Positions 780 through 24,377 of a DNA stretch of 64,000 bases are shown in pieces; the first letter of the stretch is position 1, and each line of letters begins with the position of its first letter. Origin of the DNA: Clostridium sp. DSM 17811 (GTDB lineage: Bacteria > Bacillota > Clostridia > Clostridiales > Clostridiaceae); NCBI RefSeq assembly GCF_018861905.1, contig NZ_JAHLDU010000006.1, positions 62,001 through 126,000 on the forward strand. The letters run 5' to 3'. The notes under the pieces were generated by a model. That model did no database searches and was not told the origin of the DNA. It saw only the letters and a list, made by a program, of their open reading frames with translations. The position numbers and the translations under genes are program-made.

Positions 780-890
780 ATTTCTTATTATTCAGAACTA
801 TGTTCTGCAGGAATTGACACCGTTACATAAAAAAAATGTCGGTTGTCGGGTTTCATAGGGCCAGTCCCTCCACCTCTCTAAATAAGAAAT
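780..890 (-). promoter_or_regulatory. SAM-I (S-box) riboswitch aptamer
   Basis: Read on the minus strand, the element carries the S-box signature: AGAGAGGTGGAGGGACTGG, CCCTATGAAACCCGACAACC, a variable hairpin, then GGTGTCAATTCCTGCAGAA. Helix P1 is a perfect 10 bp pairing of 890-881 with 789-780. Known aptamers of this class bind S-adenosylmethionine and switch genes off. Here it lies between a consensus promoter and the phosphoglycerate-mutase-like gene. It does not read toward metH, which is on the other strand. Confidence 0.97.
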
Positions 891-6552: not shown

Positions 6553-7359
6553 TTAGTAAGTGTCAATAATATCGCCTAATGGATCACCAGTATTTGAGCT
6601 TCCACCATTACCTGAGCCACTTTGTTTAGTAAGCTTTAAGTAAATAAGAGCCACACATACACCGATTGCCCCTAGTCCGATAAGTGTAATTTGTGAAATA
6701 GTTGCTAATACAAAACCAATTGCAAAGAATGGCCATACTTCTTTTGTAGCCATCATGTTGATTACCATTGCATAACCAACAGCTACGACCATTCCACCAC
6801 CGATTGCGAGTCCACCTGTGAGCCATGTAGGCATAGATTCAAGTACTGAACGAATAGGGCCAGCACCAACTGCTAAAATCAAGGCTGCTGGGATTGCAAT
6901 ACGTACACCCTGCATGCAAATAGCAATAATATGCCACATTTCAACTTTTCTGATATCTCCTTGTGCAGCGGCAGCATCCATAAAATGTACAAACACTGTA
7001 GCAATTGTACGACAAATAATTGTTAATAATAGCCCTAAAACTGCTAGTGGAACAGCAATAGCGATAGCTGAACCAACTCCTGCTGTGCCTTGGCCACCAA
7101 GAACTAGAATAATTGCAGATGCAACAGATGCAAGCGCTGCATCGGGTGCTACGGCAGCACCTATGTTTGCCCAACCTAAAGCAATCATTTGAAGAGTACC
7201 ACCTAAAATTAGGCATGGTAATAAGTTACCTGTAACTAAGCCGATTAACGTACAAGCAATTACTGGTTGATGGAAATCAAATGCATCCAAGATACCTTCC
7301 ATACCAGCTAGAAATGCCACGATAACGACTAATATCATTTGGATTATATTTATATCCAT
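6553..7359 (-). CDS. manY: PTS mannose-class system, membrane component IIC
   Basis: A 268-residue polytopic EIIC protein with the family start MDINIIQMILVVIVAFLAGMEGILDAFDFHQPVIACTLIG and the GGTLQMIALGWANIGAAVAPDAALASVAS segment. The last 20 residues are Ser/Gly-rich and polar. It transports the sugar with IID while IIB phosphorylates it. ATG 7359 follows AGGGGGATTAATAATC. It lies 36 bp after IIAB and 20 bp before IID, in one operon. Confidence 0.95.
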   Translation of the reverse strand: MDINIIQMILVVIVAFLAGMEGILDAFDFHQPVIACTLIGLVTGNLLPCLILGGTLQMIALGWANIGAAVAPDAALASVASAIILVLGGQGTAGVGSAIAIAVPLAVLGLLLTIICRTIATVFVHFMDAAAAQGDIRKVEMWHIIAICMQGVRIAIPAALILAVGAGPIRSVLESMPTWLTGGLAIGGGMVVAVGYAMVINMMATKEVWPFFAIGFVLATISQITLIGLGAIGVCVALIYLKLTKQSGSGNGGSSNTGDPLGDIIDTY

Positions 7360-7395
7360 GATTATTAATCCCCCTTTTTCATTTAAATAGTTAGA

Positions 7396-8373
7396 TTATT
7401 TTAATTTATTTAATTCCGCTTGTGCTTTTTTAAGTATTTCTTCCATATTTCCTTTTGAATCATTTGGAACTTTACGAACATCAAAAGTAAGTCCGGCTTC
7501 TTTAAGCTTCTTGAAGGTATCAATATCATCTTGATTGAAAGCAAGTACTTTGTTTGGTTGAACTTTACCTATAGTGTGAGCCATTGAACCAATATTGATT
7601 GTCTTAAGTGGTACTCCACCTTCTACTGCGCGAAGTACATCTTGTGGATTTTCAAAAAGAAGCAATGCACGTTGTCCGCCAAACTGTTTATCATTTTTTG
7701 CAAGTTTGATCATTTGACTAACTGGAACAACATGAGCTTTAACACCCGGAGGAGCAGCTTGCGTGATCAATTTACTACGAAGTTCATCTTTAGCTACTGC
7801 ATCTGATACTACAATAATTCTTGTAGGTAACACATCTTTTGACCAAGCAGTTGCTATTTGTCCATGAAGTAAACGAGAATCAATACGAGCTAAAACATAT
7901 TCGAATGATCCAGGTGCACCTGCACTCGAAATCCCTGCGTTTGCTTTAGAAGATTTACCATTATCTACTGGTTCTAATTCCTCTGGCTTAACTTTAACTC
8001 CTTCTTTAGCTGGTTTTAAAATATAAGCCGCAATTTCCTGTGCGGATTCCATTGAAGAACGTGAAGCATAAGCCTCAATCACCATTGGTAGATTCATACC
8101 AGCTACGATTGCCCATTTGTCTTTATGTTCTTCAAATAGACTATTCGCTTGATTGAATGGTGTACCACCCCAAAGATCAACTAAGAATAAAACTTCATCT
8201 TGGTTGTCAAAGGATGCTATTGCGTCTTTCATTTTTGCTTTAACATCATCAGGGCCTTCACTAGGCATCAATGTAACCGCTTTTACGTTTTCTTGTTCTC
8301 CGAAAATCATTGCACCAGATTGCAAGATGCCTTTAGCAAATTCTCCGTGACTAGCAAGAATTATTCCAACCAT
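7396..8373 (-). CDS. manX: PTS mannose-class system, fused IIAB component
   Basis: A 325-residue cytosolic phosphocarrier. IIA domain about 1-125, with phosphorylated His9 in IILASHGEF. A charged, Ala/Gly-rich linker spans about 126-152. The IIB domain spans about 157-325, with its active His170 in LARIDSRLLHGQIATAW. It passes phosphate from HPr to the incoming sugar. Start ATG 8373 follows ATAGGAGGTATAAAAG. A second, free IIB is encoded just upstream, which raises the question of which IIB serves transport and which serves signalling to the LevR-type activator. Confidence 0.95.
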   Translation of the reverse strand: MVGIILASHGEFAKGILQSGAMIFGEQENVKAVTLMPSEGPDDVKAKMKDAIASFDNQDEVLFLVDLWGGTPFNQANSLFEEHKDKWAIVAGMNLPMVIEAYASRSSMESAQEIAAYILKPAKEGVKVKPEELEPVDNGKSSKANAGISSAGAPGSFEYVLARIDSRLLHGQIATAWSKDVLPTRIIVVSDAVAKDELRSKLITQAAPPGVKAHVVPVSQMIKLAKNDKQFGGQRALLLFENPQDVLRAVEGGVPLKTINIGSMAHTIGKVQPNKVLAFNQDDIDTFKKLKEAGLTFDVRKVPNDSKGNMEEILKKAQAELNKLK

Positions 8374-9046: not shown

Positions 9047-9130
9047 AAACAGTGTATTATTTATTATATTTGTGTTAACTCTTCTAAAATAGCCATTTTT
9101 CGTTTCAAATTCTTTTTATTTTTTTTATAT

Positions 9131-9209
9131 TGATACACTTCTTTTATAGTTTTAATACTAACTTTAATTTTTCGCTTATAAAAAAGTGTATCAAAAGAGA
9201 AGTGTATCA
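9131..9209 (-). promoter_or_regulatory. Upstream activator sites for the LevR-type regulator
   Basis: Three exact copies of TGATACACTT/AAGTGTATCA: plus orientation at 9131-9140, and opposite orientation at 9184-9193 and 9200-9209 (16 bp apart). They lie 85-165 bp upstream of the -24 element, the usual distance for enhancer sites of sigma-54 activators. Binding by the adjacent regulator is inferred. Confidence 0.7.
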
Positions 9210-21249: not shown

Positions 21250-22416
21250 CTACTTACCTTCCACGTTTCCAACTTCTGAATGCCTTGTTATAATCTTCAT
21301 TATAAATAACTTTATTATGCCAGCAATAGGTACGGATAAAAGCATTCCCATTATACCTGCTATTGAACCCCCTATTGTTATTGCCATAATTACGAATATT
21401 GGATGAAGTCCCATACTGTCTCCTACAACTTTTGGTGATATAACAGCACTATCAAGTTGCTGAACTGCAAGTAGTAATAGAACTGCCCAAACAGCCATAA
21501 TTGGATTTGGACTAAGAAGACCAATAATAATTGCTGGAATACAACCAATTAGTGGACCAACATAAGGTATAATATTAGCAATACCTGCAGTTAACCCTAT
21601 AAGAAAAGCAAAATCAAGTCCTATAACTGATAGTCCAATACTGCTAATTAAGCCTACTATTAACCCATCCAGTAATTGCCCTCTTATAAAGCTAGATATA
21701 ATATCATTAATTTCAAATATAGTTTTATTAAAACTGTTAAACTTTCTTTCCCTCATTATAAGTCCCACAGAATTTATATAAAGCTTCTTAAAAAAATCAT
21801 GGTCCTTTAACAAATAAAAAGAAATAAATAAGCCAATAAAACTATTCACAAGAATATTGCCTATACCTGTAAATAGCATAATAATGCTATTTATAGAGAC
21901 CGATAAATAGGAATATACTTGCGTTATAGCTTTAGATAAATAACCTTTTAGATCAAGTGAAAGACCACTCTGCGTAATCTTTCTGTTAATATAATCAAAA
22001 AATTCATTATATCGTTTTATATAATCAGTTATAGTTGCAAACATAACAGATAAGGTTTGATTGCTACTAATTTGTCCACCAATCATTGCATACATACTAT
22101 AAATAAGTACAACAACTAATAAAATCACTACTAAATATGTTAGCAGAATACTTATCAAATGTGGCTTATATTTGAGTTTTAATGACTTAACTAAAAAAGT
22201 ATTTATAATCTTTGATAACGGATATAATAGATAAGCAATTATACAACCAACAATAAGTGGCGATATAATTGAAGCTATAGCATTTATTATACCAATGGTA
22301 GTTGTAAATAATACTTTGAAATTAAAGACTATATTATAACTTATAAATATTAGGGTTGCCCCTAGCACAACATATAATACGCATTCAAGATACTTTTTAT
22401 CCAACTTGTCTTTCAA
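21250..22416 (-). CDS. AI-2E family transporter (UPF0118)
   Basis: A 388-residue polytopic protein with about eight membrane segments. The family's conserved C-terminal half includes GLTAGIANIIPYVGPLIGCIPAIIIG and VVGDSMGLHPIFVIMAITIGGSIAGIMGMLLSVPIAGI. The family contains autoinducer-2 exporters, Na+/H+ antiporters and proteins of unknown cargo, so the substrate is open. Start is TTG 22416 after TGAGGAGAATATAAAT. It lies 53 bp after the four-histidine membrane protein gene. Confidence 0.9.
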   Translation of the reverse strand: MKDKLDKKYLECVLYVVLGATLIFISYNIVFNFKVLFTTTIGIINAIASIISPLIVGCIIAYLLYPLSKIINTFLVKSLKLKYKPHLISILLTYLVVILLVVVLIYSMYAMIGGQISSNQTLSVMFATITDYIKRYNEFFDYINRKITQSGLSLDLKGYLSKAITQVYSYLSVSINSIIMLFTGIGNILVNSFIGLFISFYLLKDHDFFKKLYINSVGLIMRERKFNSFNKTIFEINDIISSFIRGQLLDGLIVGLISSIGLSVIGLDFAFLIGLTAGIANIIPYVGPLIGCIPAIIIGLLSPNPIMAVWAVLLLLAVQQLDSAVISPKVVGDSMGLHPIFVIMAITIGGSIAGIMGMLLSVPIAGIIKLFIMKIITRHSEVGNVEGK

Positions 22417-22469: not shown

Positions 22470-22880
22470 TTATATAATATGAATAACTATAGCTAATAAT
22501 AATATAAATGCCATAGTGCGGTGAACTTTAAGCCACATACCTTTTCGATTTTTATTTATAAAAGTACCATAAACACCTAGCAAGAATATGATGACCATAA
22601 ATGATGCTGCAACTATTCCAGTTATACTAATGCGACCTGCAGAGAAAGCAATGATAAAATGAGTAAGTACAGTAAATATTGCTATTGTACCTGCTAGCTT
22701 ATGATATTTAATAATTATTTTCATTAACTTTCTATATAGATCTACTATTGGCTTTTTTTCTTTTCCAAGTTTACCAATATATTTTTTATTAATAAATTTC
22801 ACGAAATAATTTGAAATTGCTATACCAAAACATATAACTGTTACCCAACCTAAAAATCCAAATAGAGCTCTTGTTTGCAT
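22470..22880 (-). CDS. Four-helix membrane protein with paired HX13H motifs (putative b-type cytochrome)
   Basis: A 136-residue integral membrane protein with about four hydrophobic segments (6-28, 57-80, 84-105, 117-136). His60 and His74 lie in one helix and His120 and His134 in another, each pair 14 residues apart. Two HX13H helices are the arrangement that holds two b hemes in ferric-reductase and cytochrome b-type membrane proteins. I recognise no named family. ATG 22880 follows ACGAGGGGAAAATTATATT. No partner reductase domain is nearby, so a small di-heme electron carrier is an inference. Confidence 0.6.
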   Translation of the reverse strand: MQTRALFGFLGWVTVICFGIAISNYFVKFINKKYIGKLGKEKKPIVDLYRKLMKIIIKYHKLAGTIAIFTVLTHFIIAFSAGRISITGIVAASFMVIIFLLGVYGTFINKNRKGMWLKVHRTMAFILLLAIVIHII

Positions 22881-22935: not shown

Positions 22936-23655
22936 TTAAACTCCAAACACATTTGTAAAATCCATTTTAATATCCTCAATATCTTCATAGACTTTCTCAA
23001 GTCCTAATAATTTTTTTAAAAACAACTTTTGCTTATTTGTTAGATTTAATTCCTTATACCATGGTAACTTTTTATGTTTTTCTTTTGTTTCAAATGAAGA
23101 GTAAAGCAAATATAGTAAAAACTCACCTAAATAAGAAAAGTCTAAATCATATGGATATCTATTGTTATCTACCCATCTTGCCAAACCAAAGTCAATAAGA
23201 TATAGTTCTCCATTATCTATCAAAACATTTGGTATCCTTATATCCCTATGAACTACACCATTTTCATGAATATATTTTATAAGTTTAATCAGCTTAAACC
23301 CTATATCAAAAAATTCTTTATTAGTAAATTTGTACTTATATTTAAAAAGAAGATCCTCTACAGTTAATCCATTTTTAAATTCCAAAACAAACGCATAAAA
23401 GCCTTTTTGATTTATAACTCCTAAAAACTCTGGGATTCCATTATCTCTAAGGTTTGATAATATAACCGCTTCATACACATTCCTATCTATCTTTCTTTTA
23501 AAAATGCTCTTTTTAAATTTTTTAATAACGACCTTATCGTAAGTATCTGTTTTTGCGAGAAAACACACTCCATATTTACCTTCACCAATTGGTTTCTCAA
23601 TGATATATTTTCCAACCTGTTTCCCAAAATATTTTTTGCGACTGAGTGACCACAT
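22936..23655 (-). CDS. Small eukaryotic-like Ser/Thr protein kinase
   Basis: A 239-residue soluble kinase. Gly-rich loop IGEGKYGVCF (about 23-32), ATP-site Lys in VVIKKF (about 42-47), catalytic loop VVHRDIRIPNVLI (about 141-153) and metal motif LIDFGLAR (about 159-166). The activation segment is very short, no APE motif follows, and the C-lobe is reduced, so it resembles minimal kinases of the RIO/Bud32 style rather than PrkC. No PASTA or membrane segment. It starts four bases after the stop of the zinc-ribbon gene, so the two are coupled. Substrates are unknown. Confidence 0.85.
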   Translation of the reverse strand: MWSLSRKKYFGKQVGKYIIEKPIGEGKYGVCFLAKTDTYDKVVIKKFKKSIFKRKIDRNVYEAVILSNLRDNGIPEFLGVINQKGFYAFVLEFKNGLTVEDLLFKYKYKFTNKEFFDIGFKLIKLIKYIHENGVVHRDIRIPNVLIDNGELYLIDFGLARWVDNNRYPYDLDFSYLGEFLLYLLYSSFETKEKHKKLPWYKELNLTNKQKLFLKKLLGLEKVYEDIEDIKMDFTNVFGV

Positions 23656-23659
23656 ACTT

Positions 23660-24028
23660 CTACTCGTTTATTCCTTTTCCACATTTAAGGCAAAACTTCG
23701 CATTTGAAGGTAGTTTCTCCCCACACTCCTTGCAAAACAATACATTATTAACCTTTTCTCCACATTCTAAACAAAATTTTGAACCAGTTGGTATTTGAGC
23801 ATTACACTTCCTACAAACTATACCATTTTGATTTTCCATAGGTTGATTATTAATAGGTAAATTGTTATTTTCATAATTATTGTTATTATTATAGTTGCGA
23901 TTAGATCCACTTCTCGAACCACTCATGTTAAATAAGTTTCCTAAAAAGCCTTTTTTCTGATAGTGATTGCTTCCATTATTTCCTCTTCTATAACGATTGC
24001 CGTTAGATGAACTTGATGAAGAACTCAT
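23660..24028 (-). CDS. Double zinc-ribbon protein with low-complexity N-terminus
   Basis: A 122-residue protein. Residues 1-65 are low complexity (Ser, then Asn/Gly/Arg with YNNNNNYENNN). Two zinc ribbons follow: C-x2-C...C-x2-C in VCRKCNAQIPTGSKFCLECG and FCKECGEKLPSNAKFCLKCG (about 71-118). Such double ribbons often accompany kinases or membrane proteins as adaptors. The ribosome site AAAAGGGGTATGAAAAT begins inside the tail of the P-type ATPase remnant, so this gene now directly follows the NiCo riboswitch leader. It is coupled to the kinase gene. Confidence 0.8.
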   Translation of the reverse strand: MSSSSSSSNGNRYRRGNNGSNHYQKKGFLGNLFNMSGSRSGSNRNYNNNNNYENNNLPINNQPMENQNGIVCRKCNAQIPTGSKFCLECGEKVNNVLFCKECGEKLPSNAKFCLKCGKGINE

Positions 24029-24032
24029 ATTT

Positions 24033-24179
24033 TCATACCCCTTTTCTTATATTATCATAAATTTGTCTACCATCTTTTATTGTATCTACAATAGTTGAAA
24101 AATTATCATCAAGAAGGATTATATATGCAGCTTCCTTTGAAACCCTGAATCGCTTGTAACTCTTTTGCATTGCAATCTT
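24033..24179 (-). pseudogene. Remnant of a P-type metal ATPase (end of P domain only)
   Basis: About 47 codons remain. They read [11 protein letters not shown], then [19 protein letters not shown], then [15 protein letters not shown], and a stop. This matches the end of the P-domain of P-type cation ATPases (IAMG...VSKEAADMILLDDNFATIV...EGRRIYDNIRK). Everything before GDGVNDAPAL and all later membrane helices are gone. The frame stays open for about 30 codons further upstream only because it translates the NiCo riboswitch and terminator. The riboswitch is known to precede metal-efflux ATPases, so this is the residue of its original target. Confidence 0.8.
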
Positions 24180-24203
24180 CAGATATGTTCTAGAAATGGG
24201 TAT

Positions 24204-24236
24204 AAAAAAACCGTAGAACAATAAACTGTCCCACAG
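24204..24236 (-). terminator. Intrinsic terminator of the NiCo riboswitch
   Basis: Minus-strand CTGTGGGAC pairs with GTTCTACGG (24236-24228 with 24219-24211) and is followed by seven T. The 5' arm is the 3' part of the aptamer (CTGTGGGACAG), so metal binding would block the terminator and turn expression on. Confidence 0.85.
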
Positions 24237-24309
24237 GTATATAACCATCCTGTTGCCTTTTAGGCCCAGCCCCACGAACTTTTTTTAAAGTTCATCGCCT
24301 GCTCAGTTT
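24223..24309 (-). promoter_or_regulatory. NiCo (czcD) riboswitch aptamer
   Basis: Minus-strand signature: AAACTGAGCAGGCGATGAAC, an AAA-rich hairpin loop, then GTTCGTGGGGCTGGGCC, AAAAGGCAACAGGATG, and CCTGTGGGACAGTTT. The conserved blocks GAGCAGGC, GGCAACAG and GTGGGACAG, and closing helix AAACTG/CAGTTT, match known NiCo riboswitches, which bind Ni2+ or Co2+ and induce efflux genes. Promoter, aptamer and terminator all look intact, although the ATPase behind it is deleted. Confidence 0.9.
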
Positions 24310-24348
24310 GTACTGTAGATTTGTATGCAGTGCAAAGAGATTTTTTTA

Positions 24349-24377
24349 AGAATACCATATATATTTTTTCGTGTCAA
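24349..24377 (-). promoter_or_regulatory. Promoter of the NiCo riboswitch transcript
   Basis: TTGACA (24377-24372), 17 bp spacer, TATTCT (24354-24349) on the minus strand. Leader of about 40 bases before the aptamer. Confidence 0.75.

Follow-up and report, generated by a model that had tools for sequence, protein, structure and literature searches.

Did the deletion of a metal pump bring its riboswitch to a protein kinase for the first time, or did it leave behind a kinase that the switch had governed all along? The question arises at a locus on the minus strand of a 64,000-nucleotide stretch of Clostridium sp. DSM 17811 (contig NZ_JAHLDU010000006.1, positions 62,001 to 126,000), which we call the window. 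Here a nickel/cobalt (NiCo) riboswitch is followed by a fragment of a P-type ATPase, a small zinc-ribbon protein and a kinase. The original prediction, made from the letters alone, read this arrangement as the capture of the switch for a new signalling pair.

Architecture of the locus

On the minus strand, an alanine-racemase-like gene is followed by a promoter, a NiCo aptamer, a terminator, a leader, the ATPase remnant, a gene for a small double zinc-ribbon protein (hereafter ZR) and the kinase gene; ZR and the kinase together are called the pair. The ZR gene (23660..24028) encodes 122 residues, with a Ser/Arg/Tyr-rich N-terminus ahead of the double zinc ribbon, and the kinase gene (22936..23655) encodes 239 residues with intact catalytic motifs. 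Past the kinase, the same strand carries genes for a cytochrome b561-like membrane protein (22470..22880, a Pfam match below cut-off), an AI-2E family transporter (21250..22416, Pfam 168.9 bits) and an NYN protein. An AI-2E-like gene, named by eye, follows the kinase in locus L119, and the window holds a SAM riboswitch at 782..888 (minus strand, 93.2 bits).

The aptamer (24224..24316, minus strand), delimited by covariance search and consensus alignment, matches the NiCo model RF02683 over positions 1-96 of 96 with 73.3 bits (E 4.1e-15 in the window), far above the gathering score of 37. A terminator (24204..24236), located by scanning and folding, has a stem at 24236..24211 that overlaps the aptamer 3' end and leads into a T run. 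The 40-base fold reaches -12 kcal/mol (z -3.56), and 0 of 200 shuffles were as good. The window locus therefore has the expression platform typical of RF02683, in which the terminator overlaps the 3' strand of the aptamer. The promoter, read 24377..24349, consists of TTGACA, a 17-base spacer and TATTCT, with the TG of an extended -10 element ahead of the second hexamer. The background of the promoter scan was high, with 23 promoter-like sites over 2.3 kb against 16.3 expected, so the NiCo promoter is credible only by its position and context. With that reservation, the intact promoter, aptamer and overlapping terminator that had been predicted are all present. A scan of the minus strand found no terminator-like site from the NiCo terminator to the cytochrome-b-like gene.

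A terminator mechanism is described for NiCo riboswitches in two papers (PMC7689651, PMC7917058). The ligand is debated, being either Ni2+/Co2+ or, by later work, Fe2+, and a review on C. difficile terms the element an Fe2+ riboswitch (PMC11477304).

An intact copy of the operon

The same genome carries a second NiCo riboswitch on another contig (L015, G000:C2; 73.9 bits). Behind it lie an intact 855-residue ATPase, a ZR gene and a kinase gene, in that order, and both the ZR and the kinase are 71% identical to those of the window. The ATPase has E1-E2, C-terminal and N-terminal cation ATPase domains (Pfam). The metal exporter usually found behind a NiCo switch is thus in place in this paralogue and has been deleted from the window copy.

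The order NiCo, ATPase, ZR, kinase is also found at four loci outside the genus (L062, L065, L107 and L134), two of which have an extra gene between the ATPase and ZR: a VTT-domain protein in L062 and a 98-residue open reading frame in L134. At a further locus, L135, the order is NiCo, a 122-residue protein, a 91-residue protein, a cation-diffusion-facilitator (CDF) exporter, ZR and kinase. The intact order in L015, L062, L065, L107 and L134 indicates that ZR and the kinase already belonged to the NiCo operon before the deletion.

The reading that we prefer, with a probability of roughly 0.8, is that the locus descends from an old NiCo efflux operon of the order NiCo, ATPase, ZR, kinase, that three sister species inherited the loss of its exporter from their ancestor, and that the switch and the pair have been conserved since. 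That the pair tunes the metal response is a less certain part of this reading.

A deletion series at one site

We surveyed 17 genomes of the genus, including that of the window, and found NiCo riboswitches in nine, at 11 loci in total. This comparison located the full ATPase in relatives: it is intact behind NiCo at five loci (G005, G007, G008, G000:C2 and G016:C18), the first three of which adjoin the cytochrome-b-like gene that is also present in the window, the other two lying elsewhere. At G016:C18 (L018), only kinase debris was found behind the intact ATPase, at about 9100-9162, a loss opposite to that in the window. Five other loci have no ATPase behind NiCo (window, G004, G001, G016:C7 and G015), and the switch in G014 is followed by a cation-diffusion-type protein (named by eye).

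In a tree of the NYN gene, the window groups with G004 and G001 (96/95), the three loci that have a left deletion junction in common, within a larger group that includes Clostridium frigoris DSM 14204 (G003; 100/99). C. frigoris, which belongs with C. estertheticum to a group of cold-adapted species, is the nearest named relative in the comparison. The deletions around this site differ from species to species. G001 has lost the pair: what follows its remnant is just the final 39 residues of the kinase, interrupted by a stop. G016:C7 has NiCo directly before the cytochrome-b-like gene, and G015 has a weaker aptamer (63.7 bits) directly before the AI-2E gene. In G016:C7 (L022), the start position of the cytochrome-b-like gene at about 6725 reads ATA where relatives have ATG; this gene may be broken or may start elsewhere.

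C. frigoris shows the converse loss. This species has no NiCo match, and its locus retains the promoter's -35 side, a stretch of the ATPase (codons about 607-652) and an intact ZR and kinase. Because this ATPase piece extends past the right junction of the window, neither state can be derived from the other, barring recombination. With the same proviso, the common ancestor of the two states would have had NiCo and more of the ATPase. By this comparison, C. frigoris lost the switch through a separate deletion and kept the pair, so NiCo control is not needed for the pair to be kept. The pair is itself dispensable, being lost in G001, reduced to debris in G016:C18 and absent from G005, G007 and G008. 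A search for a close ATPase elsewhere in G004, G001, G003 and G015 found none (best identity 38%, or 49% in G015). The sister species thus form a deletion series, with states in which switch and pair stand together, the switch has lost the pair or the pair has lost the switch. It allows the value of each part to be compared.

Some of these relatives point to the downstream membrane genes as the reason why the switch is kept. The next whole gene behind it is the cytochrome-b-like gene in G001 and G016:C7 and the AI-2E gene in G015, and in G005, G007 and G008 the cytochrome-b-like gene stands directly behind the ATPase at a distance of 117-128 bases. Since G001 keeps the switch without the kinase, conservation of the switch may serve either of these genes. 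We consider it fairly unlikely that NiCo is kept for them rather than for ZR and the kinase, which are the nearest genes to the switch in the window and G004 and are under purifying selection (see below). In addition, a protein search for relatives of the cytochrome-b-like or AI-2E proteins in L015 and L062-L065 returned none.

Constraint on the switch and the pair after loss of the pump

We compared substitutions in the RNA element with those at synonymous sites, whose numbers are approximate, being back-calculated from dS over five genes for G004 (ZR and kinase included) and four for G001. Between the window and G004, the aptamer and terminator tail differ at 0 of 112 positions (with one loop gap), against 110 of about 851 synonymous sites (Fisher p 5e-7). 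The corresponding figures for G001 are 2 of 113 and 100 of about 733 (p 3e-5). Synonymous change is thus about 13% for a switch that has hardly changed, and 24223..24204 is identical in all three species. The 29 promoter sites show one substitution relative to G004 and two relative to G001.

The remnant itself changed at 4 of 84 positions relative to G004, which is below the synonymous rate (p 0.015), and at 6 of 73 relative to G001, which is not clearly below it (p 0.13); the latter alignment has 29 gap columns, part of which stem from the cut G001 stretch and are no real gap. The difference between aptamer and remnant is only marginal (p 0.03 for G004, 0.04 for G001).

The coding sequences are constrained as well. 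Between the window and G004, dN/dS is 0.08 for ZR and 0.21 for the kinase, and the values for the window and C. frigoris are 0.15 and 0.23. For genes nearby, the same two comparisons yield 0.01-0.19, so the kinase is constrained, slightly less than its neighbours. These ratios indicate that ZR and the kinase are under purifying selection since the pump was lost.

The same data bear on whether the locus is a decaying relic, in which the exporter is gone and what it left behind (the switch, ZR and the kinase) is being lost too, with no present function under the switch. The relatives can be arranged as later or other stages of such decay: the broken kinase tail of G001, the switch placed directly before the cytochrome-b-like gene in G016:C7 or, with its weaker score, before the AI-2E gene in G015, and the missing switch of C. 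frigoris. Set against this are the near absence of change in the aptamer and terminator tail, and the low dN/dS of both genes between the window and G004, which have the deletion in common. G004 moreover keeps both switch and pair though its genome has no other close ATPase. On balance we judge decay to be an unlikely account of the window copy, and an old operon whose switch and pair outlived the pump remains our preferred one.

The ATPase remnant and the ends of the deletion

The remnant (24143..24042) corresponds to 34 codons of the ATPase P-domain, about residues 601-634 of 855, and is 83-87% identical at the DNA level to the five intact ATPases of the genus over 101-107 bases. Alignment to these loci confirms that the rest of the gene has been deleted from the window copy. 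The remnant had been put at about 47 codons; the additional upstream codons belong to the riboswitch and leader, which the intact loci have too. The open frame that contains it is 80 codons long and starts inside the aptamer, with riboswitch and leader making up its first half. The leader (24157..24203), which once ran from the terminator to the start of the lost ATPase, is recognized by homology with the leaders of intact loci. This homology stops at about 24157 in most alignments, placing the left junction between about 24157 and 24143. An assembly artefact was considered and rejected, as the junction is common to G004 and G001 and C. frigoris retains another piece of the ATPase.

The right end can be placed from the ribosome-binding site of the ZR gene (AAGGGG, 24038..24043). 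This site, AAGAAAAGGGGTAT in the window, matches AAGAAAAGAGGTAT ahead of the paralogous ZR behind the intact ATPase, and AAGAAAAGGGGTATGAAAATATG in the window is the counterpart of AAGAAAAGAGGTATAAAAATATG before the zinc-ribbon gene of L015. The match indicates that the ribosome site is ancestral and that the deletion ended just before it. The idea that the site had formed within the tail of the remnant is therefore refuted.

It is very improbable that the deletion joined the switch to a pair not previously under it. A deletion did occur and ZR does now come first behind the switch, as this account requires, but the ribosome site predates the deletion and the intact operon occurs in L015, L062, L065, L107 and L134. 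Judged by gene order and alignment, the original observation is real and its explanation is reversed: the locus is an old partnership minus its pump, and not a new capture.

The 34-codon remnant is probably untranslated. The remnant aligns in one frame across the window, G004 and G001, yet we give almost no credence to its being a conserved small P-domain protein, a finding named beforehand as fatal to the prediction and not seen in relatives: the leader ATG ahead of it is AGG in G004, 18 of its bases are absent from G004 and G001, and the piece kept by C. frigoris is a different, overlapping one.

The kinase and its small partner

ZR and the kinase were predicted as a double zinc-ribbon protein followed 4 bp later by a small kinase, and the profile searches agree: both frames are intact with 4 bp between them, and both match Pfam above cut-off. 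ZR scores 43.7 bits with DZR (PF12773; cut-off 27.3), and its cysteines 72, 75, 86, 89, 99, 102, 113 and 116 are invariant across eight aligned sequences. The kinase scores 94.3 bits with Pkinase (PF00069; cut-off 31.7), the match covering profile positions 2-152 of 263. The glycine loop, Lys45, Glu62, the HRDIRIPN loop and the DFG motif are all present, and Lys45, Glu62, His136-Arg137-Asp138, Asn143 and Asp155-Phe156-Gly157 are invariant in eight aligned sequences. The stretch after DFG is short, and the APE motif is absent from the eight-sequence alignment. A search of solved structures with the kinase retrieved general kinases, with alignments that end by profile position 172 among the matches listed. 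An AlphaFold model from a six-row alignment, which bears on the C-lobe, was poor (pLDDT 61.8). Assignment as Bud32, PknB/PASTA or MAD6 was rejected, with scores of at most 54.1 bits against NCBIfam cut-offs of 125 to 460, and the kinase fell under the cut-off of each of the 20 NCBIfam models listed.

A small partner is a regular feature of these kinases. By a loose motif, 30 of 32 loci have such a protein ending at most 40 bases from the start of the kinase, the two exceptions being L059 and L139; this set leaves out L112, L118 and L125 (unusual or fused frames) and L198 and L199, and does not count L061 and L108, which duplicate L058 and L062. Partners in the looser kinase family lack zinc ribbons; most of them retain the pattern SRSS..HY..GS.YYK..G in their N-terminal part, and 12 of 19 such loci checked have an SWS end. 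In one protein (P0005; L125, 7224-8108, minus strand), a Ser/Arg/Tyr-rich tail is naturally fused to the kinase N-terminus in a single frame. The encoding of a Ser/Arg/Tyr-rich partner beside the kinase suggests that the partner is the substrate of the kinase.

A further kinase branch comprises L114, L115 (kinase at 7322-8032, minus strand), L116, L117 and L059. Very Ser/Arg/Tyr-rich small proteins precede the kinase in L114, L115 (with repeated SR dipeptides) and L116. A protein of 187-213 residues follows the kinase in all five loci, the one in L059 being without a Pfam match.

Distribution of the kinase family and its association with NiCo

A kinase profile built from eight sequences was run on 391 genomes of the class, 206 of the family and 398 of the phylum, with thresholds of 1e-35 (class and family) and 1e-60 (phylum). 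NiCo searches of more than 40 genomes used stricter filters, at which weak matches are lost. The window kinase falls in a 13-row clade with support of 100/100, and ZR lies directly before the kinase in every row (one partly masked). NiCo is upstream in eight rows (window, G004, L015, L062, L065, L107, L134 and L135), seven of which have an ATPase or its remnant and the eighth, L135, its CDF exporter. Upstream NiCo was not found in the other five (C. frigoris, L063, L064, L106 and L133). Ahead of the pair in L064 lie a CDF-SPFH fusion, another SPFH protein and one more open reading frame, and in L106 a NiCo lies about 4.1 kb downstream of the kinase. On a 23-row kinase tree, the presence of upstream NiCo requires seven changes, against a mean of 7.7 for shuffled labels, with 204 of 500 shuffles needing no more than the real labels. 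The link between switch and kinase therefore came or went often.

Outside the genus, a kinase of this type occurs together with an above-cut-off NiCo in 21 genomes. In 10 of these, the two share a strand and are no more than about 4.1 kb apart; NiCo is upstream of the kinase in six and downstream in four. The proportion becomes 9 of 20 if G452 and G505, in which the first 70 residues of each shared listed protein are the same, are counted once. By our own estimate, chance co-location is about 0.3% per genome, a figure that takes about 1.1 NiCo per 3.5 Mb and a zone of 10 kb and ignores kinship. Among NiCo genomes, the kinase is a rare, minority partner: it occurs within 4 kb in 4 of 71 in the phylum survey (own genome excluded) and near NiCo in 1 of 47 in the class survey, or 2 of 47 including the 4.1-kb case.

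Members of the looser family show other arrangements. In L137 and L139, NiCo is followed by a protein of 125 or 139 residues and then by the kinase, with no transporter seen between. A protein of 122-139 residues is the first gene behind NiCo in L137 (6817-7194), L139 (6348-6767) and L135 (10210-10578, minus strand); by eye it has a hydrophobic stretch near its start, and it has no Pfam match in L137 or L135. L121, L198 (4048-8860) and L199 (4056-8868), from other genera of the family, have the order CDF (named by eye), small SRSS..GSxYYK protein, kinase, NiCo and ATPase, with NiCo at most about 150 bases behind the kinase.

A possible role for the pair

Metal riboswitches are known for turning on pumps. 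By gene order, this one would in addition induce a kinase together with the protein that is its likely substrate. The ancestral operon would have run from NiCo through the P-type ATPase to ZR and the kinase (and on to the cytochrome b-like and AI-2E transporter genes). Metal on the aptamer, Ni2+/Co2+ or Fe2+, would prevent the terminator from forming and let transcription continue, so that pump, ZR and kinase would be made together. In the window copy, the messenger would now begin with ZR and the kinase and proceed into the downstream membrane genes. The kinase might then phosphorylate the Ser/Arg/Tyr-rich tail of its partner, and the pair might tune the response to excess metal, acting on the exporter still encoded at L015 or on some other target. 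Since the genome of the window keeps this pump, the window pair may contribute to the response there; in G004 no such pump accompanies the pair, which, if it works, must have another target.

More broadly, and as a tentative proposal that we think possible but would not bet on, the minimal kinase and a Ser/Arg/Tyr-rich protein dedicated to it, whether or not that protein carries zinc ribbons, could form an undescribed metal-response module that is induced by NiCo or encoded beside it, controls transition-metal efflux or its consequences by phosphorylation and is useful even after the exporter is lost. With the pair as the first genes left behind the switch in two sister species (that of the window and G004), the locus is a natural case for asking whether excess Ni, Co or Fe is answered by protein phosphorylation, and which metal NiCo reports. 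The partnership of switch and pair is the part worth following.

Comparison with known systems

Control of a kinase by a NiCo riboswitch had been put forward as new. This may hold for the literature, as none was described among the open-literature matches listed for NiCo, czcD, kinase, iron-riboswitch and gene-loss topics; the arrangement itself recurs and is no accident of this locus. A Ser/Arg/Tyr-rich protein and kinase that recur as a pair beside NiCo, ATPase and CDF exporters in Bacillota seem to be undescribed in the literature searched.

The window element has the aptamer consensus and overlapping terminator of the NiCo (czcD) riboswitch, and its paralogue is followed by a P-type ATPase; it differs from the usual case in that no exporter stands behind it and its first genes are ZR and the kinase. 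The paralogue ATPase resembles P2-type (Ca-like) cation ATPases in its E1-E2, C-terminal and N-terminal domains. It scores above the general P-type model of NCBIfam and below the cut-offs for PMR1, SERCA and PMCA calcium pumps and for P1B heavy-metal pumps. The kinase shares the glycine loop, Lys45, Glu62, HRDIRIPN and DFG with Hanks-type kinases (PF00069), but it is unlike them in having only 239 residues, a short stretch after DFG and no APE motif.

Kinases that act on Ser/Arg-rich substrates are known from SRPK and the SR proteins, and from the adjacent CotH and CotG of spore coats. The pair may be analogous to these, in that a small Ser/Arg/Tyr-rich protein is encoded directly before the kinase and in one case fused to it. 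This likeness comes from gene arrangement, and the partner at the window locus differs from those substrates in having zinc ribbons and in sitting with metal exporters.
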